From: Isoetes taiwanensis | Taxonomy: Eukaryota; Streptophyta; Lycopodiopsida; Isoetales; Isoetaceae | DNA: 64,000 nt | NCBI GenBank assembly: GCA_021234155.1 | Contig: JAJEKV010000004.1 | Span: 62,001-126,000 of the forward strand | Direction of reading: 5' to 3' | Shown here: one piece after another, positions 38,139-61,740 of the stretch | Position numbering within the stretch: the first letter of the stretch is position 1 | How the letters are laid out: each line of letters opens with the position of its first letter | Made by a program: the position numbers and the translations under genes | The notes under the pieces: generated by a model | Told to the model about the DNA's origin: nothing | The model's input: the letters and a program-made list of their open reading frames with translations, nothing else | Databases searched by the model: none

Positions 38139-38453
38139 ATGAAGAGATCAAATTTTAAGAGCCTGGGAGGTGTCCTCCAAGAGGCTCTATTACGGCTGGA
38201 AGAGGTGTTCCCTCCGCTTCCCTCCTCCCCACGGTTCTTGCTCAGAATGCCTCAATTTCTCGATTGATTCTTTCGATTCCTCTCGATTCCTTTGACGAGG
38301 AATCAGAGAATGAGGAATCAGAGGAAATTTCGGAGCGTGAGTTCATCACAAGTGTTCTTTGAAGGTCGGATAGGAGATTCTTCTGAAAATGAGTATTCAC
38401 CGACGGGAGAAGAAGCCGAAGATGATGAAGAAGATGAAGAAGTTGAAGACTAA
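38139..38453 (+). CDS. Small protein with strongly acidic C-terminus (cargo gene)
   Basis: The reading starts MKRSNFKSLGGVLQEALL at 38139. After one or two frame changes or a missed intron near 38260-38350 it ends in SSENEYSPTGEEAEDDEE and a further acidic run, stopping at 38453. Acidic tails are common in histone chaperones and nucleoplasmin-like proteins, but no fold is recognisable. It lies behind the first copy of the subterminal promoter-like repeat. Whether it is a gene is uncertain; the coherent acidic tail and lack of stops in that part are the support. Confidence 0.4.
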
Positions 38454-39488: not shown

Positions 39489-39496
39489 TATAAAAG
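39489..39496 (+). promoter_or_regulatory. TATA box of the transposase-like gene
   Basis: TATAAAAG, about 170 bp upstream of the transposase-like frame; the same segment occurs at 37479-37486. Confidence 0.55.
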
Positions 39497-39662
39497 CATG
39501 GATTGTAGGAGAATGGACTTTTCCATATGCACGTTGCAAATTTCAAAAACGAGGTTAGTACGGACTGAGCCTCAAACGAAGCGAATTGTGCTGGGGCATA
39601 CAAATTGTACACATTCATTTCGCGCCGTGCGATCCACGCGGTATGGAAGCTCCAAATGATGT

Positions 39663-42038: not shown

Positions 42039-42301
42039 CCTTTCATCGTAACACTCAAAGAGGGGTGGAAATGTGGGAACCAACCCTCTAAGACAGATGT
42101 GAGTGGTTTTATAGAAGGGCGATGGCTAAATCACGACAAGAAGGTCGCTTTAAGGAGCAACCCGTAAGTCGAAACACCATTGGCATAATGTGAAGAGAAA
42201 ACGGAAAGTTGCTTGGCAAAATTCTAGGCCCCACTAGCATCGCAAACAGTGGAGATCTAAGAGACAAAGAATCGGTAAAGTATACTTGTAATGTGTAGCA
42301 T

Positions 42302-42366
42302 GTTCACACGACGCGAAGTACTTGCCTCCAACCTTGTTTGCACAACCGTAGCTTCGGCCGTGTGAT
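42302..42366. repeat. Boundary hairpin, GATCACACGACGCGAA type, copy 1
   Basis: TTCACACGACGCGAAG (42302 on) and GTAGCTTCGGCCGTGTGATC (ending 42366) form a hairpin about 65 bp long. A further inverted copy of the outer motif (CTTCGCGTCGTGTGTGAA) lies at 42423-42440. It sits exactly between the 3' ends of the convergent transposase-like and coiled-coil genes. Single copies of the motif lie at about 44331, 44973, 45208, 45955 and 47733, and a second hairpin at 49872-49944. Confidence 0.8.
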
Positions 42367-42746
42367 CTTATTTGTATCATACCTGCCAGCAATGGAGTTC
42401 GCTATTGCTTGCATTTATGTGGCTTCGCGTCGTGTGTGAAGCTTTACAAGATAATAATAAAAAGGGTTACTTTTGATTAAAGTTGTGAAAGATGTTACAT
42501 TGAAAAACAAAATACAACGACTCATTGTTGCTCCAAAGGCGTAGCTCTTCTTCATTATCTTCATCATCATCATCAGCTCATTCCCTCGCCTTTCGTCTTT
42601 CATCTCTTCCCCAAGCGAGCAATCACCCTATCCAAACGTTCCTCCAATCTGTCCACCATCTCTTTTGTACATGTCCCGCCTCTGTCCCAATAGCACAACG
42701 TGTTCTTACGCTCGAATTAGCATCCTCGTTGCCCGTCATAACCACC

Positions 42747-42994
42747 TTAGTGCGCTTGTTGGGGCATGTCATCCCGTCCTACCCTTCTATTCAACCACCG
42801 ATTTGCCTCTCGGCTACGAAGCATAAGAAGGTTGAATTCATTCTCTTCTTCTTTCTGCTGAATTGTAACGGCGTTTTCCTTTAGAAGATCATCTTGCTCC
42901 TTCAACCTCTTCATTAGAACACCCAACACTATGTCGAAGGGAGTTCTATCCTCTTGCGTTTTCCATTATCAGCGGTTGAGGATGTGGAGGCCAT
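42747..42994 (-). CDS. Small coiled-coil cargo protein 1
   Basis: The ATG at 42994 begins MASTSSTADNGKRKRIE. After one frameshift the frame continues with DIVLGVLMKRLKEQDDLLKE and an E/N/L-rich coiled coil, ending near 42747. The TATAAA on the minus strand at 43086-43081 is 92 bp upstream. It is related to the frames at 43862, 44827 and 45766: an MASSSS-type start, a short basic linker, then a D-[IV]-x-L-x-V-x-[MV]-K-R-[LF]-K-E helix. Function unknown; it could bind DNA or multimerise. Open downstream frame continues to about 42490 in other phases. Confidence 0.5.
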
Positions 42995-43439
42995 AGATGA
43001 CAAATGGGAGGGACATTAAGATTATAGAAGTGAGGAGCAAAGACTCTAACCGGCGGAAGGAGCACATGCAAGGACCTCAATTTATACATATTAGCTTTTG
43101 AACATATTAAACACACTGGCCGCCGTGCCGCGACGTGTCGAGGGATTCACGGTTGTCCGCTAGAACACATTAATGGTACCGTCCGGCTGGAACACATTAA
43201 TAACTATTCTAACTATTAATCAGATATCACACCCACGCTGAATCAGAGACAGAGCTTTAAAACCCTATGAAGGGTTTTCGCCGCGGTGATCTATCTTGTC
43301 ATTCTCTACCACGGATATTGAAAATTAAAAATAGGAAACGTAATATTCGGTAAATTTGTCAAAAACTTTTCCCATTTAAAAATAAAACCAATTACAAACA
43401 TTAAAAAAAAAAACGGGCCCCTCTAGGAGGAGCCCGATG

Positions 43440-43862
43440 CCTATGATCGCCGGGCAAGCTCTTTTCCGGAGGGCGTTGATAATTTTTTCACTGCTCCTCC
43501 AACATGATTGCTCGCCCTCAAGAACCACGTTCTCATATTCCGCGAACCTTATCTTTCCCGGGCCATCGAAGTTGGGCTCGGCAGCCTCTCCCGGCCGATT
43601 GCGGCCCTAAGCCCTCTTGGAGGTTATATCTCGTGGAGCTGCATTACGCGGTCTAAGGCAGCCCGCTGATTGTCGTGCACTAAAATCACCTCCCCAGCAG
43701 AAGGCGGCCTTTTTCCTGCCGCGAACCAGCTTGGCGACGTCTTCATCATTTTTTCTTTTAGAAGGCGGATCCGTTCCTCCGCTTCAGCCGCGAATGTTCA
43801 ATTTCCTTGACCAAAACTTGAGACAAGATCTCTAAGCAGGATGGAACCGAGCTGGAGGCCAT
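43440..43862 (-). CDS. Small coiled-coil cargo protein 2
   Basis: The ATG at 43862 gives MASSSVPSCLEILSQVLVKEIEHS. After a frame change it reads AEAEERIRLLKEKMMKTSPSWF and a stretch ending LDRVMQLHEI. Start, helix spacing and the TATATAAA at 43962-43955, 100 bp upstream, parallel the other three proteins of the group. Several frameshifts. No known domain. Confidence 0.45.
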
Positions 43863-44469
43863 TGAAAGTGATGGGAGAACAGGGGAGTGATGGCTGAGGG
43901 CGGATGTGGTAGAACGTAAGATGGTGGATAGGAGAAGACAAAGGCCTCCGACGCTTTATATAGAAACTAGAGATCGTTGGAATCTACGGTTGCTAAAACC
44001 GATAAAGTTGTGTAATAATCCCACGAGGCTTAAATTATAGCATGCAATTAGGCAACGGTAGTCTATGTTCGCATCATGGGATCCGTCATATCCCAGCCGT
44101 ATTGTATGCAGGCCGCATAAAAAGACAATGTTATTGTGGCGGCAAGATGCCACGCCCTGGCATGACGTTGTCATCCACAAGCCACGATGTGAATAGACGT
44201 TGTCATCCACATGCAAATTCGCATTTACCTGCAAGTTATATCACATAATCTAGCTAGATATTTGTGTTACATACACTTTTCCATTAATAAATTATGAATT
44301 TATACATACAACGAGGTGTACGTTGTGGAGATCATACGACGCGAAATCCATTGATTGCTACCTAATTGCAAGAATGGCATTTCAAGGCCGTGGTGATCTT
44401 TTAATAAAACAAAACAAGAGAACGATAGAAGCAAGAAATAGAGCAAATTTTTCTTTGAAACAAAAAAAT

Positions 44470-44827
44470 ATATATACAATGGCTACGGATCTTCATGATC
44501 CTCAGAAGTCGGCCGTCAAAAAGCGCGTTCTCATCCTCCTAAACAAGCTTCTTCTCCATATCTTCTAGCGCCACGAATATTGTGTGCGATTAAAGCGCCT
44601 CGACCTACGGCTATTGGCCCTCGGCACTGGTTAATGTTGTGCGAAGCTCAAGGTCTCGCTCATGCAAAGCCGACCCCTAGTGAATTCTATCTGGCACCGC
44701 CTCCATCTTCTCGACGCAGGGCGGCTGTTTTTATTGCGGAACCTCCTTGAATCTCTTCATCACCACAGCAAGGGTGATGTCCGCTGGGTCCCGGTAGCGG
44801 TCGCCTGGAGGAGGATGAAGATGCCAT
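44470..44827 (-). CDS. Small coiled-coil cargo protein 3
   Basis: MASSSSSRRPLPGPSG from 44827, then in a shifted frame DITLAVVMKRFKEV, and near the end LEDMEKKLV..EDENALFDGRLLRIMK. TATAAATA lies at 44951-44944. The gene with its 3' flank (from 44331) is a duplicate of the next unit upstream (45208-45863). Frameshifted. Confidence 0.45.
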
Positions 44828-45359
44828 CTGAGGAGAAGGCGTATATGGAAGGCGGAAGGCGGAAGGCGGAAGGGGAGAAGATGAGCGTAAGAAGGCGGAA
44901 GGCTTAAGAGGATCTGAGGTCGAAGGCAAGATAGAAAGTCTTCTATTTATAACATGGATTTCGAGTAGCTTGAGTCACACGACGCCAAGGATGCCGTGGG
45001 TGGGGAAAATCGACCGTTACTTCTCGGCCGCGGTGAGGAAAAAGGACCGTTACTTCTTCTAACGTCTTTTCTTCCAGAAAGCTCGTGGGTGATAATTTTT
45101 ATTGATAATTTCGGTGATACAATCTATACATAAGTAATTTTATCGATACATAACTAAAGATAGAACTTCTCATTGAAGCAAAATAGAAGCGGCATGGAGA
45201 TCACACGACGCGAAATCCATTGATTGCTACCTAATTGCAAGCAAGGCATTTTAGGCGCGGTGATATTTTAATAAAACGTAACATACATTGGAACAACAGG
45301 ATAGATAGAAGCAAAAAATAGAGAAAACTTTTCTTTGAAGCAAAAAATAGATAGATACA

Positions 45360-45766
45360 ATGGCTAGGGATCTTCATGATCCTCTAGCTGATTTTCATGT
45401 CCGCGGTACTGAAGCCGTGAGGTCGCGTTCTCATCCTCCGCATTTCGGAGCTTCTTCTCCATATCTTCTAAGGCTCACAAATCATGTGAGCAGTTTAACC
45501 GCCGGCCCCCGCTGCTCGTCGCCTTCTTGGTACATGGCTTAATGTTTCCACGAGCTCAACGTCCCGGCCAGGTCGGCAGCAGCTCCCTCGTGAAGGTTAA
45601 CTAATCGACCATTGCCTCATTGTTCTCGGCGAGAGGCGGTTGTTTTCATCATGGATCTCCTTGAATCTCTTCATCACCACTGCAAGGGTGATGTCCACGG
45701 GCAGCTCTGGGGCTGGGGAGTGCTATCTTGGCATGGTCGCTTGCTAGAGGAAGATGATGATGCCAT
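45360..45766 (-). CDS. Small coiled-coil cargo protein 4
   Basis: MASSSSSSKRPCQDS from 45766, then in a shifted frame LPVDITLAVVMKRFKEIHDE followed by NNRL. TATAAATA at 45863-45856, 97 bp upstream. It is the closest relative of the 44827 gene; the shared helix is identical over 11 residues. Function unknown. Confidence 0.45.
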
Positions 45767-46139
45767 CGGAGCGAAGGTGGAAGGCGGAAGCCGGAAGTAG
45801 AAGATGAGCGGAATATGGAAGGCGATCGGAGGTCGCGGCGTGGACATCGGTCTTCTATTTATAATATGAGTCACACGAGTTGCTTCTCGATCGCGGTGAG
45901 GAATAAATAAATTAATTGTCTTTTTCCAATAATATTTCATTTCTTGAGATAGATATCACACCACGCGAAAACCTAGATATGATGAAAAAAATCAGGACCG
46001 ATGTATTTGGCGTGATGTGAATAAATACAAATAAAATAATTTTTATTAGGAATTTCGAAGGACAATCTGTACATAAATAATTTTACCGATACAAGTTGGA
46101 AAACATATAACTTCCAATTTCTCAAGCTTGTGTCAATTT

Positions 46140-47000
46140 CATGCTCTTTCAATCCCTCGCCAAGACTTGATCCAACAAGGCAATGACTTCCATGTTATCG
46201 ACCCCGACTTCCAACCTTGGGTGAGTCAAGCCGGCAGACTAAAAAAAATTTAACATATTGCTCGCGTCACAGACCGGCTTTGGTCGTCAAAATATTGTAA
46301 CACAACATCCGCCGGAAGTGCTATCACCCCTTCGGTGTTTGATGCCAATTGGGAATGGTTCGAACATGCATAATGCACGGAGGTAATAGACAAACTCGCA
46401 CCCTTTGACTGAAAGTTCTGGCGAAGACGATTATCTCCCATTAACGAATCTTGAGATATATCTTAACAATGTAGAGTCCTTCAATCTTTCCTGTCCGCCC
46501 GTGCATGTCGGCAAGAAAAATCATCTACTTCCCACAAATAAGAACCCTCAAGATTATCTTCTTCACATTTATCCTCATCTACAGGCTTATCTTTGATTGG
46601 TGAAGGGCACTGCCAAACCTCAGATCCCGTTGGCGCTTTGCAGGAGATTGGAATTCTTCTTCCGTTGGTAGATTAAGCCTCATCTTGAGCAAGTCGAGAC
46701 TCCAGCCTCTCATATGCTTCTTTAAGCTTTATAGCATTGCCGGTATAATTAGATACTTCAAACATCTCTTTGTCCAAATCCTCTTCAAAAATCTAGGCCT
46801 AAGTTTACCCATTCGCCAAGGTACTTGATAAGCTCGTCTTCCCTAGCACACATTAAGTAACATAGGCGGGTTCCTCGGTATATCACTTAGCAATAAGTAT
46901 TCTTTGCCTTCCACTAAAATTGGCGTTATGTCGGACAACTTCTTTTCATCCTCATCCCCATCCTCATCACCTTGAATCATCTCCCTCCTCCTGGTTCACC
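46140..47000 (-). CDS. Cargo gene remains with acidic and coiled-coil parts
   Basis: Minus-strand coding-like pieces in order: DADYDVEMEIDLQEEEQE at about 47080-47020, FEEDLDKEMFEVSNYTGNAI with KLKEAYERLESRLAQDE at about 46800-46690, EGVIALPADVVLQYFDDQ at about 46350-46290, and RLEVGVDNMEVIALLDQV ending in a stop at about 46150. An acceptor-like TTTTTTTTAG precedes the last piece. These may be exons of one gene or the 3' end of the gene at 47626. No domain recognised. Confidence 0.35.
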
Positions 47001-47116
47001 CCAAAGGCGTCGAAGCTAAAACTCCTACATTCTTGCTCTTCTTCTTGTAGATCTATCTCCATTTCTACGTCATAGTCGGCATCATCACACATAACCGACC
47101 CCTTGGCTTAAAGATT

Positions 47117-47626
47117 TCATTGTTTCAAGTGTATCTTCGGGTTTGGCCGAAAGAGAATGCAATAACTAGCAAATGCAAAGCAAAAAAGAGAAATAAGATA
47201 CCTTCTTAAGCACAAGGACGAGCCGGGGAGGAGCCCGCGGCGCGGCATTCTTGAAAACATCTTCCCGTTTTGCAAATGGGAAGCCGCCTCCTCTAGAGCT
47301 GGTTTTGGAATCCACGAGCGGGGACATCCGCAAAGGGCGTCTTGCCGAGACCAAGCGGTCTGGGTGAAAGCTAAAAGCAACCTCGCGATAGCATCCAAGC
47401 TCGCATCTTTGTTTGCCATGATGTCCAACTCCTTGCAATAGAACGGATAAATCATGATCGCCGCCAACTTCCTCGTTGTCATGAGGGGCGGATGCATACC
47501 ATTCGTGAACTTCACATAACAATCCATGGCGAAGCAAGCAGCGAAAACAAGAAGATGTTTAGGGGCGGTAAAAGTAGCCGGTCGCTTTGAACTCAAGTAG
47601 CCGTTGTCGATTATGAAAGGGGACAC
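47117..47626 (-). CDS. Possible histone H2B-like cargo protein
   Basis: A 169-codon minus-strand frame. The middle part CYVKFTNGMHPPLMTTRKLA, followed by AIMIYPFYCKELDIMANKDASL, can be laid on the H2B alpha-1/alpha-2 region. It keeps the K-x(5)-HP pair, the K-x(3)-IM step and the F-x(4)-[LF]-[ED]-x-[LM]-A spacing. By eye only about 9 of 38 positions are identical, so the call is tentative; its position directly beside the clear H3-like gene is what makes it worth stating. The frame before it (SPFIIDNGYLSSKRPATFTA) is not H2B. A donor-like AAG|GTATCT at about 47205 suggests an intron. The real start may be upstream (an MEDHTTPQ start lies near 47748). Confidence 0.35.
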   Translation of the reverse strand: MSPFIIDNGYLSSKRPATFTAPKHLLVFAACFAMDCYVKFTNGMHPPLMTTRKLAAIMIYPFYCKELDIMANKDASLDAIARLLLAFTQTAWSRQDALCGCPRSWIPKPALEEAASHLQNGKMFSRMPRRGLLPGSSLCLRRYLISLFCFAFASYCILFRPNPKIHLKQ

Positions 47627-47655
47627 GGCCGTTGTGGGGAGATTTGTCCGTACAT

Positions 47656-47684
47656 TTTAGGGTTAGGGTTAGGGTTAGGGTTGG
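47656..47684 (-). repeat. Short TTAGGG array
   Basis: Four TTAGGG units (TTTAGGG then TTAGGG), a vertebrate-type rather than the usual plant TTTAGGG telomere word. It lies in the 5' region of the H2B-like frame. Too short to be a telomere. Confidence 0.85.
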
Positions 47685-47852
47685 ATCCTGCTGACTACTA
47701 CTATGTGCAACAAAAAGCACAATGCTTGTGGCGTCGTGTGATCCTCCATTATAACATTCAAAAAAAAAAAAAATACAAAGTGCAGAAGCTAGGCTTCTAA
47801 GAAAGAAATGGACTAAGAGATTAAGCTTATAAAGCCATTGCATTAAGAAATA

Positions 47853-48757
47853 TTATACATATGAAAAAACACAAAGGCACTTCACGGCCTTTTTTCCGGG
47901 GGTCTTTCTTCTTGTTGTATTCAGCCATAAAATTTTGACCATAGTTTTTCGGGATCCCTTATGCGTAAGGCGTAGCATGTCCTTGGGCATAGCAGGTCCT
48001 GCGCTTGGCATGTATTCTTTGCAAGCTGCGAGTCCTCGAACAGGCCGAGCACAAGCGCTTCGAAGCCATTTTGAAGAGCATTTAAAGGCGGTTGCTTGCT
48101 TGATTACTATGCTTGGTATGATGTATCGCACAACACTCTTGCGGGGAATCTCTCTCACGAGCGGCAAATGGGAGGCGGAATGACCATCTCGGTGCTCTTA
48201 CGATACTTCTTAATCGGCGCTCTTTAATACCAGGCCGTCTTCGCTTAGGCCTCTACCCTCACCCACCCCACATTTGGAGCATTTGCTCGGCCGGCCTCTT
48301 CGGCCGCCTCCTCCTCACTCGGCATCTGCGAGCGATTTCCTCGGCCAGAACTCTTGCGGCGTAGATCTCCTCACATTCACAAGTAGCCTTCCCTTTACGG
48401 CGTTGGGCCTCCTCCTCGATTTGAAGGTCCTAGCACCTCCACGGGGGAGGCAGGAGGAAGCGAGGAAAGAGCAAGAAGAGGCGGCTGCCCAATAATTAAT
48501 CCGGCATCATATTCTTCGCCACGTCTCTCTCACATTTTCATCCTCGTCTCCGAACCGGAGTGCACCTCCCTACTTACTCCGTGAGCTGCTTCTCCCGCTG
48601 ATGCGTCATGCGATTTCTTTTCCGGGTCTTACATTAGGCATGGTCGGAGGAGGAGAATCTCTATCGAGACTTCAGAGATCAGATGAAGAAGGCGGACTAA
48701 TGTAATCACCGGCCTTACACCACGGATGGATCCTTGCATTTGTTTAGTTCTTGCCAT
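47853..48757 (-). pseudogene. Histone H3-like protein with long tail (transposon-borne)
   Basis: The ATG at 48757 gives MARTKQMQGSIRG, with the exact H3 tail start ARTKQ. A charged linker of about 170 codons follows with a coiled-coil part (EEEAQRRKG.. EEIYAARVLAEEIARR). Then the histone core appears in order, split over frames: RRRPGIKERRLRSI (H3 RFRPG.. alpha-N), KSTEMVIPPPIC (48200-48165, H3 KSTELLIRKLPF), LVREI (48161-48147), NALQ..EALVLGLFEDSQLA (48080-48018; H3 [20 protein letters not shown]), IHAKR and MPKDM (47990-47976; H3 MPKDIQ). A K/R-rich C-terminal extension runs to 47853. TATAAA lies at 48784-48779. Frameshifts within the core mean this copy is broken or the consensus is wrong. 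It would package or mark DNA if made from an intact copy. Confidence 0.85.
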
Positions 48758-48784
48758 GGCTTCTCGGCCGGATGGCGCTTTATA

Positions 48785-49479
48785 CTACTGAACAACGACA
48801 AAAATAGACAAGCTGGCGAGGAGATAAATAGTAAAAAAACGAAGTTAAAGTAAAATATGATGGTAGCGTTTTTAAATAATTATGCGGAACCCTAAAAAAA
48901 TATCGGACAAAATACGGAACCCTAAAAAACATCGGACAAAAACACAAATAAAAACCGAGATTCAAAGCGCTAGCCGATAGACAATTTCTTGTTGATCGCG
49001 AACTCACTAAACTTTACATTTCCTCTTGCTCAGAACCAACCCTAATGCCATCAATAAAATAATGGAAGTCGTTAAACAATTTCCTCTGTCTCCATTAGCA
49101 CTCTTAGCTCGATAATGGCCATTAAACTTTCCATGGTGGCCGTATAAATGACTTCCTCCCTCTCCATACTCGAATATCCACCGATCGGAGTGTCTATTAT
49201 GGTCCTCAAACGGCTCCCAAAAAGTTGTGCACCCTCTCTTTTACTTTTCCTTCGTTTCTAGTTGACAATTAACATTATAAATATTGTTTTGGAAGAAAGT
49301 ATCCGAACTTAAAGAAGGACTTAACTACGCGGACCTCTGTTAGTTGACCGGATGATTCGTGGAATCGAACATCCCGTGTCGGAACCAAAAATAAGCCATC
49401 CACAAAAATCTAGGGGAGAAAGCATTATATGTCTTGAGACTTTTGAACTTCCGCCTATCCGAATATGTTAGCAAATACC
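48785..49479 (-). other. Minus-strand coding-like stretch without assignment
   Basis: It continues from the ASF1-like frame (a DLFLVPTRDVRFHESSGQL-type piece near 49360 is readable) and ends in AT-rich DNA. No domain recognised. Confidence 0.3.
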
Positions 49480-49877
49480 TCAAAGCGGTGTGTGAAGATT
49501 TTTGAAACTCATCCTCACGCCTCCGTTTTCAGACATTCCCGCTTGCACCTCGTCAGCCATGCATTTCTTCATTGCAATTACATTGTTCTCATTAGTCCGT
49601 GGCTTACAAAGTTCACTTAAAGGGGCAATTCAACCGCCTCAAGCTTCGGTTTCCCGACCTTTACGTTATAATCATGTCCGTAAAACCGGATGCCTATACC
49701 CAAGGTCACGACATCCATACCTTGGAAAAGGACAATTAGATGTCTATGTGATACGACAAGTACACTACTAATACTTTCGGTAGGAATGACATCCACGACG
49801 TCGATAAACATAAACCTCGCACAATAAATTTGTTTGTAAACACGTGTCGAAAAGAAATGAAAAGATAAGAAGATCAC
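49480..49877 (-). CDS. Possible ASF1-like histone chaperone (cargo gene)
   Basis: On the minus strand, 49877-49617 reads RFMFIDVVDVIPTESIS then SVLVVSHRHLIVLFQ and MDVVTLGIGIRFYGHDYNVKVG. Laid on ASF1, these match the order WKLIYVGSAED.., SVLVGP..VFQAD and DIIGVTVLL..SYMGQEFLRVG: alternating beta-strand hydrophobics, an SVLV strand, an FQ, and Y-x-G-x-[DE]-[FY]-x-[RK]-V-G. After a frameshift the frame goes on as NNVIAMKKCMADEVQAG. ASF1 binds the H3-H4 dimer, which would fit the neighbouring H3-like gene. Identity is low and the family call is tentative; an Ig-like beta protein of another family is possible. Confidence 0.35.
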
Positions 49878-49944
49878 ACGACGCGAAACTATCTCTCACG
49901 CCAGATTAAGTAGGCGACGGTAGCTTCGGCGTCGTGTGATCCGT
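49872..49944. repeat. Boundary hairpin, GATCACACGACGCGAA type, copy 2
   Basis: GATCACACGACGCGAAAC (49872 on) and GGCGTCGTGTGATC (ending near 49941) pair as a stem. The inner GGTAGCTTCGG is shared with the hairpin at 42302-42366. It lies between the frames at 49877 and 50347. Confidence 0.85.
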
Positions 49945-49981
49945 TTTAAGGTGGTTACCATTTGCGGGCAATTTTGGGAAG

Positions 49982-50347
49982 CTATTTTTGGTGGAGATTA
50001 GCTCTTTGGCCATATCGGAAAGGGGTATATGCATGTATTGTTATATATTCCACTTTCCAGGCGCTAGAATTCAACTTGAACTCTTTTATCCTACCTATCC
50101 AATGTGTCCGCATCGCGTCGACGCCTTTGTCGCTTAACTCTATGCTCGCCCCTCGTTGATGGCAAAGATACTCACCTGAACCTATTGAGACAAAACCTCC
50201 CACTTCTTGACCTTGGGAGTTCGTAGAATGGGGCAAGAACACGAAAATTACGGGGAGACATGGATTGCGGATGAGGAGTGAAGGCGGAGAGGATGCACGA
50301 GGCAGCCCGGAGTGACAAGATCTGAAGTTGGCGCCAAAATTTGACAA
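49982..50347 (-). CDS. First exon(s) of a cargo gene at the right end
   Basis: The minus-strand frame runs 121 codons from 50347. A textbook donor (TCAG|GTGAGT) sits at about 50176 and an acceptor-like GAGCATAG at about 50140, so 50347-50177 is probably exon 1. The following part has FKLNSSAWKVEYITIH, which could be the N-terminal strands of the ASF1-like protein (DLEWKLIYVG), making 50347-49480 one gene interrupted by the boundary hairpin. This is speculative. Confidence 0.35.
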   Translation of the reverse strand: MSNFGANFRSCHSGLPRASSPPSLLIRNPCLPVIFVFLPHSTNSQGQEVGGFVSIGSGEYLCHQRGASIELSDKGVDAMRTHWIGRIKEFKLNSSAWKVEYITIHAYTPFRYGQRANLHQK

Positions 50348-50595
50348 GGGAGTTGGTGGCGCCCGGCGAGGGCGGTCAAAGTCACCATTATTTTGGGCGG
50401 CGACTCGAAAAAATACGGGCCATTAAAATGGTTGCAATAAAAGCGCAGCATCCCTATGAAAATACGCCATGTGGATGCCAAGTAAGCCCCGCTCATCCTT
50501 CTACCCGCCAAGTAATCTGCGACTTTTTTAAGAAAAGGCGCCAAACCGATTGGTCTGGCGACCGGGACGGCGGAAATCTTTAGCCCAAGATAAGG

Positions 50596-50626
50596 GGCCA
50601 TTTTCAGACCCCAAATCCGCCCTAAT
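50596..50626 (-). repeat. Right terminal inverted repeat
   Basis: An exact reverse complement of 37041-37071; ends CCGCCCTAAT. Confidence 0.9.
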
Positions 50627-50627
50627 G

Positions 50628-50850: not shown

Positions 50851-52109
50851 ATGGCCTTAACCAAACAGACCGCCAGAAGCGTCGCCGCCAGCGAAACCAC
50901 CCGGCGCCCACGGAGGCTGAGATCATTCGATGATGCCCGCGAGAGGCTCGCGAAGGGGGTCGTCGCCTTCTGGACGAAAGAGCGGACACGTCCCGGTCGA
51001 TCGGACGCCTTCAACCCGCCAGGTGGAACAGACGAGGCAACATCACCAACCTCCATGGACGAGGAGACAAGGGAGGTATATGAGGAAATAGAGCGGAGAT
51101 CCAGAACAAGAAAGAGCAAGACCATTCAAGCAGCCACGGAGATCCTCGAAAGCGGGGAAGAGCGGTGACGGTCCGGAGGCCAGAGGAAGCAGACTTTTAG
51201 AAGGTTCATTAGGAAATATGAACGCGGAGAAGAGGAAGGAAGACAAAAAGAGGAAAAGGGAGGAAGAGGGAACAGTAAAGCGAGAAGAGAAAAAGAAGGC
51301 GAAGGGGAAGTTCGTGGATAGCACAAGGAAGTCAAGGATCAGCCCACGCCGAGGAAGAGGCCTAACCCCAAGATCGTCATCAAGGAGCTGCAAGCCGACG
51401 AACCTCCCAACTCCTCCGGACGACTCTTCCCGATGGGGACTTCAACCCTAATGCTGCAGGTGAAAGCTCTTCTAAGCACCCGGACGTGAGACGTGTAGTG
51501 CCCGACCAGCCAAAGACCGGAAGCAACCCCAGCCAAGACCAAGTGCGTAAAACCCCCGAAAATTCGGATGGGATAGAAAGAAGTACACCACGACCTTTGC
51601 GTGGAAGCTTACGCCACCGGTGGTAAAGATATAACGAAAAGAAAGATGAGGGAGCACGAGGCTTATATGAAGAAATGGGAAGCCTACAGCAAGTACTATG
51701 AAGAAAACAGGTGGTCGTGATCATCGCGAGGAGGGCGGCCGACAAAGCAGTTATAGACCTTGAAGCCGCCACCACCAAAGCCCAAGGTCCCTGCCACCAC
51801 CCAAGAAGAAGGTAGACAGGAAGGAGGGGTGGAGAGGAGGGAGATTAGGAGACTTAGGCAACAAGAGCTACTTGACTTTAATCCCCGCGCCCCCTTTGCT
51901 CCGTTAGTGCGCAGAAGTAATGCGTGCCTACGTGACGTAATTTCCGCGGTCATCACTTGCCGAGGCCGCTAGCAATGCAAGAAGCGGCCGAGGCAAAGAT
52001 AGTGCAACATTTTGAAGATTCAACAGCCTGCACTGTCCACGCCAAGCGGGTAACCCTAATGCGACAAGACATGAGTCTTGCGACCCGCATAAAGGGAGAA
52101 CGCCCTTAG
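50851..52109 (+). pseudogene. Histone H3/CENH3-like protein with very long N-terminal tail (retroelement-borne)
   Basis: The ATG at 50851 gives MALTKQTARSVAASE, the H3 tail start with one change in the first nine residues (H3: MARTKQTAR). A charged, low-complexity tail of roughly 310 codons follows over shifting frames (EEETREVYEEIERRSRTRK, KKKAKGKF, REHEAYMKKWEAYSKYYEE). The histone core starts at 51838: REIRRLRQQELL, then NPRAPFAPLVRR (H3 LIRKLPFQRLVRE), and, after a stop/frameshift at 51970, [17 protein letters not shown] and [20 protein letters not shown] to the stop at 52109. The last 45 positions are about 60% identical to canonical H3. APF before the LVR and LMR in place of IMP are typical of plant CENH3, while the KGER end is H3-like. 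No intron. It lies between leader hairpins of a chromovirus, not next to host genes. Confidence 0.88.
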
Positions 52110-52252
52110 AAGCGTTTTTTGTAAATAATTGAAAATTTTGTATTATAGAGCAATTGTGTGTACTTAATTGCATAAACTTGATTAATTAGAGCAAGTTAAT
52201 AAGTTTTAGCTTTTATTGCAGCGAAATAGGACAATTGCAGGCCGAAACACGT

Positions 52253-52322
52253 GATGTCTCATTTCGGCGCTGGTATAAAACTAAATTTTAGTTTTGAAGC
52301 GAGGCGCAAGCTGTGAGACCTC
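52253..52322. repeat. Leader hairpin unit 3
   Basis: GATGTCTC at 52253, CTAAATTTTAG centre, and GCGAGGCGCAAGCTGTGAGACC at its right end. Confidence 0.75.
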
Positions 52323-52449
52323 GCCCAAACTTGACCAAAGCAGCTCCAAATCGACTAAATAAGGGGTCAATTCTGTCTGAATTGATGAGCCCATCATCCT
52401 TACACCATTAGTTTACCCAAATTAGACACCTTTTGATCGAAATGAGAGT

Positions 52450-52520
52450 GATGTCTCACAGCTCGCGCCTGGTCAAAGAACTAAAAGTTAGTTTTGGGGA
52501 GCGAAATTTGTGGAGACCTC
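52450..52520. repeat. Leader hairpin unit 4
   Basis: GATGTCTCACAGCTCGCGCC, CTAAAAGTTAG centre, GTGGAGACC right arm. Its left arm pairs with the right arm of unit 3 as well as with its own. Confidence 0.75.
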
Positions 52521-52705
52521 TTACCATTTCTTTACGAGCGTGTCCAAATCATCTTCAACTTTGTTGGATAGTATCCTTGAGGTAATTTAGCCTGTTCAAA
52601 CATCTCATTTAGTCTTCAAATTGCCATTTTTACCTTAGATAGACTAGAATTACCCAACCCCAGGAATTTCCCAAGTCACCCAAAAATTAGGGTTTTCCCC
52701 TTTTC

Positions 52706-52713
52706 TATAAATA
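52706..52713 (+). promoter_or_regulatory. TATA box of the second cassette
   Basis: TATAAATA followed by GACCCCTCATTT, 122 bp upstream of the ATG at 52828; parallels 50747. Confidence 0.6.
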
Positions 52714-52827
52714 GACCCCTCATTTCTCAGATAGCACCCTACAAATCCGCTCCTGCCCTTCTAGCCGATTTCTCAACTCCCTGAGGCGCTCTTGCAACCG
52801 TTTGTTACCCTCTCCTGCAATTAACCA

Positions 52828-54339
52828 ATGGCAACCTCTGACTTTCGCTGAGATGGTACGGCGCCCGGCGCTCATCTGCTGAGGGCGGCGTCGACCAAAT
52901 CTTCCATATCTTGGGAAGACCTTGCACGCAACCCCCCTTACCCGGTAGAGTCTTGTCTCGAGTTCCAAGCTAGGGTAGAACCCAGCTAGTACAGCTCCCC
53001 TTGTGTAGGCTACTTTGTCCCTAGACAGTCCACATAGCGGCATTAGACGATGTCCCTAACATCGCCAAATACCTAACAAACAAAGCGCAAATAAGACACT
53101 CCTCGAGCCAATGGTCCTAACTGTCAATAGGACCAAGTATTTCTCTTTCAACACCGCCTTGGCAATCTTTCTCACCCACCGTGCCGAGAAGGTGGGGGGA
53201 AACCTCCATTCCCCCATGGACGTAGACCCATTAGCCATAGCGGAAGAACAACGGCTCCGGGCCACGGTATGAACAGAGCAGAAGGGGAAGGAAGAAGACT
53301 TCGGATGAACAGGAATCGAAGAAGAGGAAGACTATGTCGAGCTCGACCCAGCGGAGGAGCGGCGACAAGCGAGCAGGAGTGGCAAGACTTCGGGAAAGAA
53401 GCCGCAAACTCTGAGTCACGCCACCCCTTGGGTTAGGCATCACAAGCCTAGCTCCCATTATTGTCGAGGAGTTTACGCTCCTAAGCGACATCCAAAACCT
53501 CCCTGAGGGGAAAGGGAGCACAGACTGAAGAGTTGCTGCACCAACTCAAGAACGGACTGGGCGACTTCATCATCCGAGGAGCATCGACTTCCCACTCCAA
53601 GTAAGAGAAGCCGACACTTACATCGGAGAGTCGCCTCAGGCATCCAAGCCTACTGGCAAAGATCGTGCGATTATGGAGGGCGGACCAGGCAAACAAATCA
53701 ACTACCGACGGAGGGAAGAGTTCCCTTGCCCTCACAGAACAGATGGGGATCCGTTATGCGACCTCGAACATCCTAACGGCAAGCTCTTCAGCAACACCTC
53801 CCCCGGAGAGAAGAGGCGAATTCGACCTAAGGAGGGCTTCAGCAACAGTCAGAGACTACAGGGAGCTCACCACGGTGGAGGTTGATGACTTTGCAAAAGG
53901 AGACCTGAGCTGGATACCGGTGGCCGAGGGGCCCCGTCCGACTTAAAGCGGTCATTTGCGTTATTACCTCCCCTGCTGATGGATGGTAGATTAGCGGTAA
54001 TTCACCGCAAGTTCACCCCCAGAGGCGAGGAAGGAGTATCGATGCTGATTGCACTCTCAGGATTCGGCCGGCATGCGCGGTTGCCCCTCAACACCGAGTA
54101 TGCCATTGCCGTGAAGAAGCAGTAGCACTTTCGGCGTCTTCGACGTAGGTACCTTACAAAGGCAAGGATGGCGGTGGATGCAGCTTATACCTCGGCCCTT
54201 GAGAATAGAAGACTTGGCGAGAGCTTTACAGGGGGGATCTTCAGCCAATGTCCTTAGGAACTTGGGCCATTCAGTGGGAACAGCCCAAGTGAAAAAGTTC
54301 CTAGAGGATAACCCATCTTACCGGCGGCAGCAAGAATGA
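52828..54339 (+). pseudogene. Second retroelement cassette protein, unknown
   Basis: It begins MATSDF at 52828 and soon changes frame. Coding-like pieces follow in order: VNRTKYFSFNTALAIFLTHR at about 53127, an acidic EEEEDYVELDPAEERR part at about 53315, TVRDYRELTTVEVDDFAKGD at about 53845, LAVIHRKFTPRGEEGVSMLI at about 53990, and a continuous end with IEDLARALQGGSSANVLRNL and QVKKFLEDNPSYRRQQE, stopping at 54339. I tested it against H2A, H2B and H4 by eye and saw no match. It may be an element-specific ORF1 protein such as those found ahead of gag in some giant gypsy elements. Confidence 0.5.
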
Positions 54340-54502
54340 TTAGCAGTAGCTGTAATTTTGTATTAGCATAATATAAAATATGAATAGAATTTCGTTTGCT
54401 CTATAAATGTTTTGTTGATGTATCTTGTGTCCCCAACCATGCCAATAAACATAAATAATGCAAGAAAACAAGGAAAACTAACCATATAGCTATGAACCAC
54501 TT

Positions 54503-55460
54503 GTGTATGCAGCTAGAAGCCTAAACGCAGGAGAACGTCAACTGCGAGAACTTATGGAAGAACAGAGTCCGCCCAGGCCACGCCCGGCAAGGAACCTGCT
54601 TGAAGAATTTGGACAAATGACCCCAGAGGAAGAAATATCGCAAATGAGGACGGACCTTGAGCAGATAAAGGCTTTGCTAGCCGCACATGCTGTGAGCAGG
54701 TTCGGGTGGCGCTCCAACCCGCCGCAAGCGTCAGCTCGGAGAACAGGAAGAGACAAGAAGAGGGGCAAGAGAGGAAGGTCCCCCAGTTCGGACTCCTCCG
54801 ACTCAAGCCCAGATTCAGACTCCGATTCCGAGGAAGAAGAAGAGCAGAACCAAGACCGAACAGATGGAAGGCGAGGAACACCCGACCCGGGACGACAAAG
54901 GGACACAAGAACCTCGACTACCGTAAGAAAGTGGACTCGCATTGGGAAATGTTTGGAAGGCCGGGAAGCTCGAAAGGCAATTCTCAAAGCGAGAATAGGT
55001 CGCATGGAGGGAAGCTTGGCTTGACGAGATGAGTGAATATGGCAACACTTATGGTATGAAGGATAAGGATAAAGCGTGGTAGCAACCGCAAACCCGAAAG
55101 GAGCAAAGACGCATTTGGTGGGAAGGGTTATGCCAAAGCTCATGGCTTAAGCGGGGATGCTTGCGGTGTTCGTGAAGTTTGCTAAAGCCTTCAAAAGCGC
55201 CATTACGTTCCAAGAGAGCACAAGTCCAAAGATGATCTTGGCCGGTTCTGAGGTTGCGGCAAGGCAACAAGTCGGTCTGAGAAATATCTGAGAGGAGTTC
55301 ATGAATTTGAGGTATGTGCCAAAGTTAGGTGAGAAGCATGCGAGAAAGCTACATTGAAGGTCCGAATGAGGAGATCCGCAAGCTTGTAAGGGCAATAAAC
55401 CCTAGAACAATGCTCGAGCGGAGTCCAAGGCAATAAGCTTGCAAGGAGCGGGACCTGAGT
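54503..55460 (+). pseudogene. gag: gag
   Basis: An open frame of 173 codons from 54503 (no ATG; starts in phase with GTG) has LLEEFGQMTPEEEISQMRTD, a K/R and S/D-rich stretch and an EEEEEQ run. Further on, in other phases, FMNLRYVPKLGEKHARK (about 55299) and EEIRKLVRAINPRTML (about 55365) fit the capsid C-terminal pattern of Ty3/gypsy Gag. No intact CCHC zinc knuckle was seen. Broken by several frameshifts. Confidence 0.65.
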
Positions 55461-55954
55461 AGCGGCGGAGGCGGTATTATCGAGGACAAAGGCAAGGCAA
55501 CAGTGGTTTTAGCGAGGGGCGGCCCGACCCGGGGACCCGGCTAGAGCCCCATATATAGTAGCAATCGGGGAAGCGGCGGGGAGAAAAAGCGGTGTCCTTT
55601 AAAGATAGCGAGGAAGGGTCAAACTACTCCAAAGCGGTGCGATCCTTCTTGCGAGCCATGCCCAAGGAGAAACGAGGAGTGCATAAGCGGCTACGCCCGG
55701 GTGCTTCCAGCGGGCCATAGAACGGCGAAGCGCCCATACGTTATGAGTGCGGCACTAGCGAGTTGGGGATTGGGACACTCTGGCGGCGGCGGCGAGGAAG
55801 CCCAGCGACTACATTTGGGGTGAGTGTCATATCTTTGCCGCAATAGATCTGAGCAAGCGAGAGCGGTATAAGGTAATTTCCCGATTGGGAAAGGCCAAGG
55901 CCAAGTCATTTATAGTCTGATAGATCGGGGAAGTAGCCATAACCGCATCCCAGA

Positions 55955-56224
55955 ATGGCCCAAATGTTGAAGTTGAAACCATTAAAGTCAAAGCCAAGGC
56001 CCGTTGTCTTAGCAAGTGGAGCGGTAGAAGGCGGGGCGGCAGGTAAGAGAATCAACCGACATCGACTTACCGAGGGGATTAAAATCGGATGGGGGCGAGA
56101 GGTAATGGGCATTGGGAAATCTGACTTGATCATAGGTATGGAGTACCTTGGACCAGCGAGGGGGCCATCATTGATTGTGGAAGCGGAAAGTGACCTTCCC
56201 AACACCCGGCGGCAAGATCATTGA
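55955..56224 (+). pseudogene. pol: pol: protease region
   Basis: SDLIIGMEYLGPARGPSLIV (about 56120-56180) corresponds to the [IL]-[IL]-G-M-[DE]-[WY]-L end of gypsy aspartic proteases. The catalytic D-[ST]-G was not found in the decayed sequence before it. Confidence 0.6.
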
Positions 56225-56465
56225 GATCCGCGGGTAAAGAAGTTGTCCCCATCATGCGGTGTATGTCTTCTAAGCGGCTGTTCAAGTGTATCAAGAGTGA
56301 GCAGGTGGCATACATCTTCAAGCTTGAGATTGAAGAGCGAGTCGAAAAGAGAGTGAAGAAGATAAAGTGCTCAACAAGCTGCCCAAGCGGATAGCTAGCG
56401 ATCCGCGGAGTTCCATGAGCTCTTCCGGATGAGATCAAGCAGCTCCCTCCTTATAGGGGAGTCGA

Positions 56466-57190
56466 ATGCGAGATAGCACTTTCGAACGGGGAACAAAGCC
56501 GACAAGCAAGGCTCCATATAGAATGACAACGCAAGAGTTGGCCGGATTTGAAGAAGCGATTTCGGGAGCTGCTTTCGACCTAGGTTTCATTAGACCTAGT
56601 GTCTACCGCCATTTGGGCGCCCATTCTTTTTTTGTCAAGAAGAAAGATGGATCTCGAGGATGTGCATAGACTATAGGCGGTTGAATAAGCACACCATCAA
56701 GAACAAGTATCGCTTCCAAGATCGGGACGACTTGATGGATCAGCTTCAAGGAGCAAAGATCTTCTCAAAAATCGACTTAAGGTGGGGCTATCATCAGATC
56801 CGGATAAAGGAAGAAGATATCCATAAAACCGCCTTCGGGGGCGGTATGGGCACTATGAGTTCACGGTAATGCCTTTTCGGCTTATCAAATGCCCACAGCG
56901 TTCATGAGGCTCATGAGCGATATCTTGGGGAGTTCCTAGACACCTTTGTGATTGTTTTCTTTGATGACATTTTGGTGTATAGCAAATCCCTTGAAGAGCA
57001 TGTACAACACTTGAGAAGAGTCTTTGGAGAAGTTGAAGAGGCACCAATTATGCATGCCAAGTTGTCGAAGTGCCACCGCAACGGAGAGGGTGGAATACCT
57101 TGGTCATGTGATTTCAGCAGAAGGCATCTCGGCGGACCCGCCAAGATTGAAGCGATGATTCAATGGCGGCGCCCGAAGAAGAATGCATGA
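56466..57190 (+). pseudogene. pol: pol: reverse transcriptase
   Basis: Motifs in order over three frames: FIRPSVYRHLGAHSFFVKKK, CIDYRRLNKHTIKNKY, FSKIDLRWGYHQIRIKEEDI, VMPF, and the catalytic FFDDILVYSKSLEEHVQHLR, then AKLSKC. This is a Ty3/gypsy RT with the usual [FY]-x-D-D box. Frame breaks at about 56660, 56850 and 57050. Confidence 0.92.
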
Positions 57191-57289
57191 GGTCGAAGTT
57201 TTTCTCGGGCTAGGGTACTACGGGGAAGTTCGTGAAGAACTTTGCTAAGATAAGCGCCCCCCGATGCGCGGACGACAAAGGCGAGAGAA

Positions 57290-57700
57290 GGTGAAAGATT
57301 GGGCGAGCATTGGCACAAGAAAGCCCAAAAGGGGTTTGAATTGTTGAAAGAAGCTTTGGCGACAGCCCTGTCTTGACCTCGCGGACCGGAGAAAGATAAG
57401 CTTGTAGCAGCAGATGCAAGTAAAATAGCTACAGGGTAGTGCTTATCACGGGGAAGAGCGTGTGGTAGCGTATGACTCCGGGAAGATGAACGGCCGAGAC
57501 GTGGCGCTACCCAACGCCACGACCGAGGAATTGCTTGCGGTTGTCGGGGCACTAAGAATATGGAGGCATTACCTCTTAGGAAGGAAGTTCCAATTGGATA
57601 CCGACCATGAGCCTCGGTATGTATTCACGCATAACCACACCTTATCTCGAGGCGGCGGAGGTGGATGGAGTTCCTCGAGGAATATGACTTTGATATAGTC
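57290..57700 (+). pseudogene. pol: pol: RNase H
   Basis: FELLKEALATA, AADASKIATG (first acidic residue), ELLAVVGALRIWRHYLLGRK, FQLDTDHE and WMEFLEEYDFDIVYKRG are in gypsy RNase H order, spread over frames. Confidence 0.88.
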
Positions 57701-57929
57701 TACAAGCGAGGGGGAAGCTCAATGTGGTAGCGAGATGCTTTCGAGGCATCCCCCGACAACTAGAGTGCATTGCAATGCAATTTCGGACTCTCCGGCGACT
57801 TTGGTAAGAAGATTGAAGAGTCCTTGCCAACGGATGTGGATTTCAGAGAAATATGGGCAAGCCTCTCTAGGGAGGCTAGAAACGAGATAAAAAGCGGGAA
57901 GCCTTCAAGCATTATAAGAAGGAGGGCAA

Positions 57930-58720
57930 CTGTTATATCATAAGGACAAGTTGTGCGTGCACGAGTCATCGGGGGTAAGGAAATTGATCCTCCATGACAC
58001 GCATACTGGCCATGCGCGGCTATTAAACATATTTCAAAGCTTGGCGGCTATTATTGGCGGGGAATGAAGAAGCGGTAGCTCGCTACATCAAGGAATGTCG
58101 GCTATGCCCGGCAGACAAAGCGGGCGACTTAATTCGAGGGGGCATTAGAGCCATTAGCGGTGCCAAGCGCTAAGTGGGAGGTGATTAGCATGGATTTCAT
58201 CACAGGGACTCCCAAGGACCGTCCCGGAGGGAAAAGGCGGCTTTGATGGTGGTAGTAGACATAAGTTGTCGAAAATGGCACATTTTGTGCCTTGCGGGGA
58301 CCACAGAAGGCGGCTATGGATCTGGAAGCTCTTCACAAAAAGAGATCTTTAGGCTTCATGGCATGCCAAGGGAGATCATCTCCGAGCGAGGGATCCGAAA
58401 TTCATGGCGCCTTTTGGCGGGGACCTCTTTGCGACAATCGGGCGAAGCTATCCATGAGCACGCGGCATATCATCCTCGAGACGGATGGCCAAGCGGAGGC
58501 GGACCAACGAGGATTTTTAGAGGACATGCTACGAAACTATATGCGGAATAAGCAAGGTATGTGGGAAGAATTTATTCACTTGGTGGAGTTTGCATACAAT
58601 AGCACCAAGCGGGGAATCATCCCAAATGTCGCCGTTTATGATCAATTCGACTATCGATTGCCTAACTCCGGACACTTGGCACAACCCGTGTCAAAAGTGG
58701 AAGTTTAGCGGCGGATGTTG
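57930..58720 (+). pseudogene. pol: pol: integrase
   Basis: The HHCC zinc part is seen around 57985-58115 (ILHDTHTGHA.., YYWRGMKK). The catalytic core has MDFITGTPKD (first D, 58190), MVVVDISCRKWH (58245), GMPREIISERG (second acidic site region, 58360), TDGQAEA with the following FLEDMLRNYMR (58480) and WEEFIHLVEFAYNSTKRG (58562). Frameshifted throughout. Confidence 0.88.
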
Positions 58721-58758
58721 GCTGATATGCGGCGGCTTGTGGAAGAGGTTCGAGGGTA

Positions 58759-59293
58759 TCACGCTAGCGGCAAGAAGTCGACAAAAGAGCATCGCCGACA
58801 AGCATCGAACGTAAGAGAGTTCAAAGTTGGAGATGATGTTTGGCTCAAGATCAAGGTGAAGCGGGTGGCTTCGGGTTGGGAATTGCAAGAAGCTTGCTCC
58901 AAGGTGGGCTGGACCTTCGAGAATAGTCGAGAGAGTAGGTAATCAAGCCTACAAGCTAGACTTGCCAGCACACCTAAAGATTCATAAGGTCTTCCGCGTG
59001 AGTTTGTTAAAAAGCACACTCCAAACCCGGGCGAAGTCTTGGACACTCAACGTTGTTGGAAATGGCGGAGGAGGAAGGCTGGAGATAGTTTCGAATTGAT
59101 TCTTGATAAAGCTTTCAAGAAAGCGAGGAGATCAGAATTCCTCCAATACTTGGTCAAGTGGAAACACTTACCCGGTGGAAAGGCGACATGGGTACTTAAG
59201 AAAGATTTAGTAAGCGGTACCCACGGTTTATGGAGCAATGGGGCGGCAAGGTCATCTCAGAAGAAATCGGCTCGGGCATGTCGATTTGTGTAG
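58759..59293 (+). pseudogene. pol: pol: GPY/F-like linker and chromodomain
   Basis: FKVGDDVWLKIKVKR (58825) is the start of the integrase C-terminal barrel. After a gap, YLVKWKHLPGGKATWVLKKDL (59145-59205) is a chromodomain of the chromovirus type, which in relatives binds methylated histone H3 or other chromatin marks and steers insertion. It follows directly on the integrase and ends the polyprotein near 59293. Confidence 0.88.
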
Positions 59294-60171: not shown

Positions 60172-61740
60172 TGTGGCGTTCGGCCACGGTATACGGTCCT
60201 AGAGCATTATCTTTGATACTGCCTCAAATCGCAGCGTACCGCCACTCCGACCGGCGTTATGCGCCGACGGATAGCCGTGTAAAGTAGCCCTAGGGGCAAC
60301 TTGCTAGGAATGTTCACATGTTATTAATGTGCACATATGCACATTAATGTGGGCACACTTTTCCATGTAGACACTTTTGCCACCTTGCCATTAATGGCAA
60401 GTGGGCCCTTTCAATTATCCCACATGCCAAAAGGGGATGGTGGAAACCCTAGCCCTAAACCCATGTCTATTTGGGGTAGGAAAACCCTAACTTGCTAGTT
60501 TTCGTCCTTAGGGTTTTAGAGCCCCTGTTTTGGTTGCCCGGGGGGCCAAAACCGCATCCCGCAGCGCTTAAGCGAATTGCCATCGGTTTCCACGAATTCG
60601 ATCAGCTCGGCGGGGATGGTTGAACTCAGGTCAGGGGAGGAGCCACTCGGGGATCAGGTATTTGGTCAATTTAATAGCTTAAACCGTCTTCTAGTCATAG
60701 AACCGGTAAGTTTAGACTATTAAATTGCCCATAGTAACTATCTAGATCTTAGATCTCTGGGACACTAACTAAAGAACCTAACTCTATGATCTAGATTAGA
60801 TCTAGTTCTTTAGTTCTTCGGTGATGTATATGGATGATGTATCTTTGTGAACTCCTTGTATTGGGAAGGGGGTAGAGGCCCTAAAGGCTTGTAGTTGATG
60901 CTCCTAGAGTAGCCTCTCTAGCACCACGGTAGATTCGGCACGTGCACAAGAACCACACACGGTTGTGGGTGAAGGGGGGGCCCGGCTTAGAAAGAGGTTA
61001 GGTGTTCGACTCTTGAGCGATCCCTATGGTGTGTTAGTGCTACCGGGGATCATTGTGACTAGGTCTAATGCCTTGCCGAGTGCGGGCAAGGCATGGGCTC
61101 TTACTGCAGGTGGGGTGGGGTTCACCTTCCAATGCGGGTTCAAGTCGAATCTGGGCGGTGGCCCTCTAGTCACCTTGAGTCGGCATGTAGACCTCACGGA
61201 GGGAGTGATCCCTACGCCCCCATCGGGCGGGGAGATGAAACCCGAGGAATAGCCCTTTTGGCTATGCATCCGTGGCTCTGATCGAGGTCCCAACACTTTT
61301 CAGCCTACTCGCAAAGTGTGCACGGGGAGGGGCGGATGGAGTGGACAACCCTATGCCATGTTCATATGCCGACCAAAGCCATTGCCATGAATTACATGCG
61401 CAATGAACTCACGGAGACCCAAGCCGTCAGTCATCCCCTTGAGTGCGAGCCACGGGTAAAGCTTCCCATATGTATTGTGCTCACCTTGTTTATGCAGATG
61501 TGATGGACCACCCTTGGAGGTGGTTATGTGCTTATGTTATATCTTGACATGTATGTTTACGCCGCATGACTAGGTTGGCCCGAGGGAGGCGGGGGTAGAA
61601 TGACACCTTCACTCTTCCCCTTTGGGACTCGTTACAGTGCGGTGATGTGTGGAGGGCCCTATATCGATTGTGGAGCTGGTATGGGGAGAACTCTGTTTGT
61701 ATCACGGTGAGGGCACCGTATGCAGTAGGGGACATCCACG
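60172..61740 (+). repeat. 3' LTR
   Basis: Collinear with 35031-36591 over its whole length. Many differences are short local scrambles in G/C-rich words rather than single substitutions, which points to consensus errors as well as age. Confidence 0.92.

Follow-up and report, generated by a model that had tools for sequence, protein, structure and literature searches.

The window, a 64-kb stretch of one contig of the Isoetes taiwanensis assembly, contains a Ty3/gypsy chromovirus in which a histone H3 gene lies after the leader, ahead of a further open reading frame (ORF2) and gag-pol (Table 1). The gene order gag, protease, reverse transcriptase (RT), RNase H and integrase is that of Ty3/gypsy elements, as seen from Pfam and DNA matches in the window and in other copies, the protease match coming from a second family (family 2) only. 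A chromodomain was found in all seven copies whose integrase end was examined. The primer-binding site is presumably of the initiator tRNA-Met type. The original prediction had placed the H3 gene between the 5' LTR leader and gag; the position after the leader holds, although a 13.6-kb TIR element interrupts the leader, which puts the 5' LTR 14 kb upstream of the gene, and ORF2 intervenes before gag.

Table 1. Features of the chromovirus copy in the window and of the element nested in it
Feature	Position	Strand	Remarks
Target duplication GCAAG, 5 bp	35026-35030 and 61741-61745		Flanking both LTRs
5' LTR	35031..36591	+	TG start; self-blastn 87.7% to 60191-61733; ends read
Primer-binding site, deviating in the window copy	36594..36606	+	TGGTATCAGAGC in 4/4 other copies looked at
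Leader, part one; palindromic hairpin cores at 36821 and 37013	36607..37040	+	Continuous with 50627-50850 in other copies
Nested TIR element, 13.6 kb	37041..50626	.	TIRs of ~38 bp, inverted match 37040-37078 / 50589-50627
Leader, part two; CTATAAATA at 50746, 105 bases upstream of the H3 start codon	50627..50850	+	
Histone H3 gene (ORF1): H3 tip, charged linker of ~320 aa, H3 core	50851..52109	+	Frame broken in the window copy
Spacer; hairpin cores at 52279 and 52479; CTATAAATA at 52705	52110..52827	+	Pattern as before the H3 gene
ORF2	52828..54339	+	516-codon open frame in copy L029; between H3 gene and gag
gag-pol, frames broken in the window copy	54482..59290	+	gag and integrase by Pfam in copies and by DNA match
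Reverse transcriptase	56600-57187	+	Pfam in window
RNase H	57429-57695	+	Pfam in window
Chromodomain, integrase C-terminus	59099..59215	+	PF00385, E 1.1e-6 here; 7.9e-11 in copy L032
3' LTR	60172..61740	+	GCAAG at 61741-61745

The nested TIR element is a later insertion that lies outside the chromovirus proper, because the two halves of the leader adjoin each other in other copies. It is accompanied by a 9-bp duplication (AGCGAAAGC and GGCGCAAGC, 7/9 alike). That the H3 gene might be part of this element was ruled out: the TIRs end 224 bases upstream of the gene, and other copies carry the gene without the TIR element. Within the insertion, the open frames at 39660-41544 have no Pfam match above cut-off, and the minus strand at 48020-48226 gives an 8.6-bit match to an H3/CENH3 profile built in this analysis, the next-best in the window and probably due to chance.

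Elsewhere in the window are a tandem array with units of about 3.6 kb that are 84-92% alike (1-10280), a reverse transcriptase frame that probably belongs to a non-LTR element (15308-15982; PF00078, E 2.1e-22), a piece of an exostosin GT47 gene on the minus strand (19344-20204; PF03016, E 3.6e-21) and an inverted repeat with 283-bp arms that are 98.6% alike (23195-23477 and 23659-23941). Rfam families and tRNA genes were looked for in the window and none was found, and a scan for bacterial-type promoters and terminators gave results at chance level.

The H3 gene of the window copy contains frame changes and is read in eight pieces. Judged by profile matches, its last 46 codons are beyond doubt those of an H3: the C-terminal piece (51936-52106) matches the Pfam core histone family PF00125 (E 2.4e-11, 44.4 bits), a histone match of the kind that the original prediction proposed as a check, and it matches histone H3 in the PDB (E 1.2e-12). 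The predicted structure of a 57-aa piece has a pLDDT of 63, too low for a structure search. The N-terminal half of the core, taken alone, matches 0 Pfam families and no histone in the PDB, reaches E 0.56 with the H3/CENH3 profile and is recognised by motifs only, which stand in the right order; joined as a single query, the pieces match PF00125 across the whole core (E 8.1e-12). The motifs first named from the DNA are all present in the order given. A six-frame scan of the window with the H3/CENH3 profile yielded a sole strong match, at 51969-52103 (56.7 bits). The start, MALTKQTAR, is off the H3 start at one of eight residues, while the best ATG in 20 shuffled windows is off at four or five; one further ATG in the real window shows three differences. 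The profile scan and the shuffled-window test together rule out a chance match.

Errors in the assembled sequence bear on how the broken frames are to be read. The two window LTRs differ at 16% of columns and the differences are clustered, the longest identical run being 115 bases as against 69 or fewer in 1000 shuffles. The difference rate is 0.376 near CAG/CTG versus 0.110 elsewhere, and 0.338 near CG versus 0.070; in controls it is 0.174 versus 0.158 near AAT/ATT, and 0.221 versus 0.146 near GAT/ATC. The primer-binding site of the window copy shows deviations of the same kind. Base-calling errors at methylated cytosines are the likely cause of the frame breaks in the window. Decay of methylated cytosines is the alternative and would fit the clustering near CAG/CTG and CG, but the 87 transversions among 193 mismatches and the 42 gap events fit errors better. 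Because such errors are likely, the frame changes of the window H3 gene are weak evidence of decay; true decay may have occurred in some copies as well. Base-calling errors at methylated sites would break repeat frames elsewhere in the assembly too.

The host assembly (1.658 Gb, 1110 contigs) was searched with the C-terminal H3 piece as query. The best 150 of 7198 first-look candidates, which include the window copy, all have E values of 7e-20 or lower, so that there are at least 149 further matches. The window copy and the copies compared with it below are here called family 1. The matches listed are dispersed along long contigs, for example from 2.4 to 52.8 Mb of the 53-Mb contig C907. Thirteen of the 150 matches listed have open frames of at least 400 codons, and the other 137 have shorter ones. 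Twenty copies were compared. They were picked from the 150 best matches for having the longest open frames, a choice that lowers dN in the query part. Among the 27 loci from which they come (L002-L028), 24 have the core and 20 have it at equal length; L002, L004, L005 and L007 were dropped for another length and L003, L006 and L008 as being without a core.

In nine of the 20 copies the full frame is open for 403-443 aa and begins with MARTKQ. The tip MARTKQTARK, sought at the ATG that matched best no more than 40 bases from where the start was expected, is exact in 13 of the 20, has one mismatch in two and is frame-shifted, mutated or not found in five. Its presence in 13 copies rules out a tip without K9, as the window copy would read (MALTKQTARSV). 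An open copy matches PF00125 with E 5.3e-28 and H3 in the PDB with E 2.9e-26, copy L029 scores 98.2 bits with the core histone profile against a curated cut-off of 26.4, and the core of copy L009 reads RALREIRHFQRSYGLLIPRAPFARLVREVMQ...RIKGERP. The short tail of an ordinary H3, some 40 residues joined to the core, was not found; about 320 residues separate tip from core and, because of these, the family-1 product is classed by its sequence as an H3 variant and not as canonical H3.

The linkage of the gene to the chromovirus was followed in ten copies read in 10-kb and 4-kb pieces. In all ten the H3 frame comes after the leader, with 404-460 codons from stop to stop, and is followed by ORF2 (cut short in L035); gag is present behind these in nine copies and RT likewise in nine. 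An LTR lies upstream of the gene in nine, and the integrase-chromodomain and 3' LTR were found in seven, in a further 4-kb piece. LTR pairs, measurable in seven of the ten, are 90-98% alike with errors included, and the insertions are therefore fairly young. Other copies of the element thus carry the H3 frame, as the original prediction supposed, and do so at the same place in each of the ten examined. A one-off host retrogene, the contrary outcome foreseen there, is excluded by the at least 149 further matches and the common position. Searches of a 5.8-billion-protein set returned 2 and 14 H3 or CENP-A-like proteins of 69-168 aa; none of 109 candidates for long-tailed relatives in that set was found at E 0.001, and none of 19 pattern matches in viral contigs was confirmed.

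The H3 core evolves under strong constraint. For the 20 equal-length cores, pooled pN/pS is 0.083 within subfamily A (12 copies), 0.102 within subfamily B (eight copies) and 0.115 between them, at pS values of 0.31, 0.34 and 0.63, respectively, and no pair has a pN/pS of 1 or more. For core positions not covered by the search query the values are 0.058 (A), 0.129 (B) and 0.135 (between), and the same core DNA read out of frame gives 2.5 and 2.0 for A versus B. Across the nine full frames pN/pS is 0.30 in the linker, 0.090 in the core and 0.042 in the tip, the last value being biased since these frames were chosen for their MARTKQ start. Comparison with copy L029, in stop-free pieces only, gave 0.073 for the H3 core (nine copies), 0.098 for RT (seven), 0.264 for gag (four), 0.275 for ORF2 (five) and 0.300 for the linker (nine). 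The histone core is therefore held about as tightly as reverse transcriptase. The same place in ten of ten copies, the at least 149 further matches and a core pN/pS of about 0.1, against 2.0-2.5 out of frame, bear out both the central claim of an H3-type gene inside a Ty3/gypsy chromovirus and the purifying selection suggested as a check on it; this is very probably a genuine H3 gene that belongs to the element and is under selection.

The H3 gene and ORF2 appear to form two gene units, each with its own promoter. The TATA-type sequence CTATAAATA stands 105 bases before the H3 start codon and 123 bases before that of ORF2; in ten other copies, both sites are present in nine and the second only in one. 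A palindromic hairpin core (exact pattern, plus strand) occurs four times in the window, always in the chromovirus and twice ahead of each extra gene. The exact pattern is found 0 to 4 times per copy in the ten other copies, and RNA folding of three hairpins gave z-scores of -1.6, -2.7 and -2.4. ORF2 of copy L029 has no Pfam or PDB match of note; its product may act together with the H3 product and determine what the latter does.

A search of the host genome with canonical H3 found 15 genes at 96-98% identity (270-274 bits) and, after a gap, at least 135 matches from 188 bits down. The six of these 15 host genes that were read encode the RKYQ form, which we take to be a plant mark. Seven copies of family 2 were read (L055-L058 and L060-L062), the gene order past ORF2 coming from one of them (L056/L059). 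Their H3 frames, 413 aa long in three of the seven copies, start with MA[IN]TKS, MDITKS or MANNKS, without the ARTKQTARK tip, and the N-terminal part is unrelated to that of family 1. The core is identical to host H3 at 84-87 of 98 positions, with G replacing E105 (five copies compared), and pN/pS in four copies is 0.036 for the core and 0.181 for the N-terminal part. The ORF behind the family-2 H3 gene matches family-1 ORF2 weakly in four of four copies (E 8e-12 to 0.010; 20.7% in L056) and has one NCBIfam match, far below cut-off. In L056/L059 this ORF is followed by a 166-aa ORF, gag (66 and 46%, in two pieces), protease and RT (94% over the first 51 residues). There are thus two related chromovirus families with the same gene order and very different H3 proteins, for which two separate captures or a gene replacement in one family are possible origins.

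The gene had been described as H3/CENH3-like; its H3-type character stands, whereas a CENH3 identity is not established. Family 1 has CENH3-like residues (LLIP.APF and LMRQD), yet its loop 1 is of H3 length, two residues shorter than in the two plant CENH3 compared, and its profile scores are 95-99 bits for H3 versus 74-79 for plant CENH3. In a tree built with provisional reference sequences and from which host CENH3 is absent, family 1 forms one group (100/99) and family 2 another (97/98), and a single TE clade is weakly rejected (AU p 0.0455). Two plant CENH3 share a fork with family 1 there, on long branches and with support of 89/88 that falls short of the strict threshold, and family 1 stands with all five CENH3/CENP-A rows at 73/83; another, earlier tree gave it no settled place. 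No host CENH3 was recognised in the five loci read among the best 150 matches, where an intron-split gene could escape. A CENH3 origin, with the captured gene guiding the element to centromeres, would account for the CENH3-like residues and for the 89/88 fork, but it is improbable in view of the H3-type tip, the loop length and the higher H3 scores. The unsettled earlier tree, the provisional references and the failure to recognise a host CENH3 gene in those five loci weigh further against it, as does the dispersal of the listed matches along most of C907.

The best overall explanation, which we consider probable, is that the long-tailed H3 variant encoded by the gene is assembled into nucleosomes together with host H4 and works at the level of chromatin, through either anti-silencing or targeting. 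The protein would be made from the internal TATA-type promoter or from a spliced transcript, enter the nucleus, pair with host H4 and join nucleosomes, where its modifiable tip and bulky linker would alter the chromatin of the element or of the target; the outcome would be weaker silencing, or integration where the chromodomain integrase can dock. The four family-1 copies aligned retain C110, H113, R116, T118, D123, L126 and R129 (H3 numbering), residues that presumably belong to the H3-H3' interface and dyad region. A tightly held tip and core, with a loose linker, are what would be required of a protein presenting an H3 tip on a long arm from a nucleosome or an H3-H4 complex. Entry into nucleosomes is somewhat more probable as the mode of action than not, and escape from silencing could well be the main gain, although the odds lie slightly the other way.

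Alternatively, the protein may not be deposited at all and may act as a decoy, its tip and H3-H4 surface occupying modifying enzymes, readers or chaperones (H3K9 methyltransferases, or those of the ASF1/CAF-1 type) and so weakening host silencing in trans. The tip, with its K4 and K9 sites, is the most constrained part (pN/pS 0.042, biased by the choice of frames; exact in 13 of 20 copies), and a 320-residue linker would presumably be awkward in ordinary chromatin; however, the core is as constrained as RT, helices alphaN-alpha1 included, and family 2 has kept its core without an ARTKQTARK tip, which makes a decoy rather unlikely. H3-H4 is deposited at replication forks, and the histone might instead ride with the pre-integration complex as an integration or import factor, tethering it to newly assembled chromatin alongside the chromodomain that the same element encodes (seven of seven copies examined there). 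The spread of the listed matches along long contigs argues against this role, which is a little less likely still. That the element merely carries a captured, functionless H3 gene amplified by hitch-hiking is highly improbable. The broken window copy, and frames of 400 codons or more in only 13 of the 150 matches listed, would agree with such a passenger, but clustered errors may account for many broken frames, a second family retains an H3 as well, and a pN/pS of about 0.1 at synonymous differences of 0.3-0.6, with 2.0-2.5 in the out-of-frame control, contradicts it, as does the value of 0.073 for the H3 core in the L029 comparison. A more specific form of the nucleosomal reading, in which new copies are wrapped in the element's own H3 and the modified ARTKQTARK tip is read by its integrase chromodomain, would amount to self-marking chromatin and is a long shot.

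DNA viruses encode histones, among them bracovirus H4 with an extended tail and the histones of Marseilleviridae and Medusavirus. These are likewise parasite-encoded core histones with an altered tail and presumably act in chromatin, but their carriers are not retroelements and the proteins are other histones or doublets. The closest precedent is H3L, a histone H3 gene in a hAT DNA transposon of Pyrenophora tritici-repentis, whose authors suggest that the genes may have drifted (PMC3538342). That transposon is a fungal TIR DNA element with nearly identical, recent copies (PMC3538342), whereas the Isoetes genes lie in LTR retrotransposons with deep copy divergence, occur in two families and have a strongly selected tip and core. 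No hAT transposase or TIRs were found around the H3 gene in the window: LTRs and gag-pol bound it, and the TIR element is nested upstream, at a site where other leaders have no insertion.

Plant LTR retrotransposons with extra ORFs beside gag-pol have been described, and the nearest captured host enzyme is the m6A demethylase encoded by an ORF of orchid Gypsy elements (PMC7264820, PMC6317226, PMC9289625). The descriptions of these elements that were consulted name no histone gene among the extra ORFs, in contrast to the H3 gene found here. Histones go unmentioned in the main text of a review on extra ORFs carried by plant LTR elements (PMC7264820), and a screen of 121 angiosperm genomes reported 15 unusual domains, with histone not among the nine named (PMC9289625). 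Known chromoviruses (Tekay, CRM and other clades; PMC6317226) share with the Isoetes element RT, RNase H, an integrase with chromodomain and a primer site of the initiator tRNA-Met type, but differ from it in that two extra genes, each behind a TATA-type sequence, here precede gag. A limited search of the open-licence literature found no report of a histone-coding LTR retrotransposon, in line with the original prediction, whose author knew of none described with such a gene.

Transposons are usually seen as being marked and silenced by way of histones that belong to the host; here retrotransposons own a histone gene. With them one can ask directly whether a retroelement is able to rewrite the chromatin around itself, and the copies offer a natural set of H3 tails and linkers shaped by selection. 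Elements of this kind can also inflate the number of histone genes counted in such genomes. If self-marking were true, the element would recognise related copies, shield them or hold them poised, and guide new insertions, which would be a private histone code; the two families, with their different N-terminal parts and tips, would then be rival codes.
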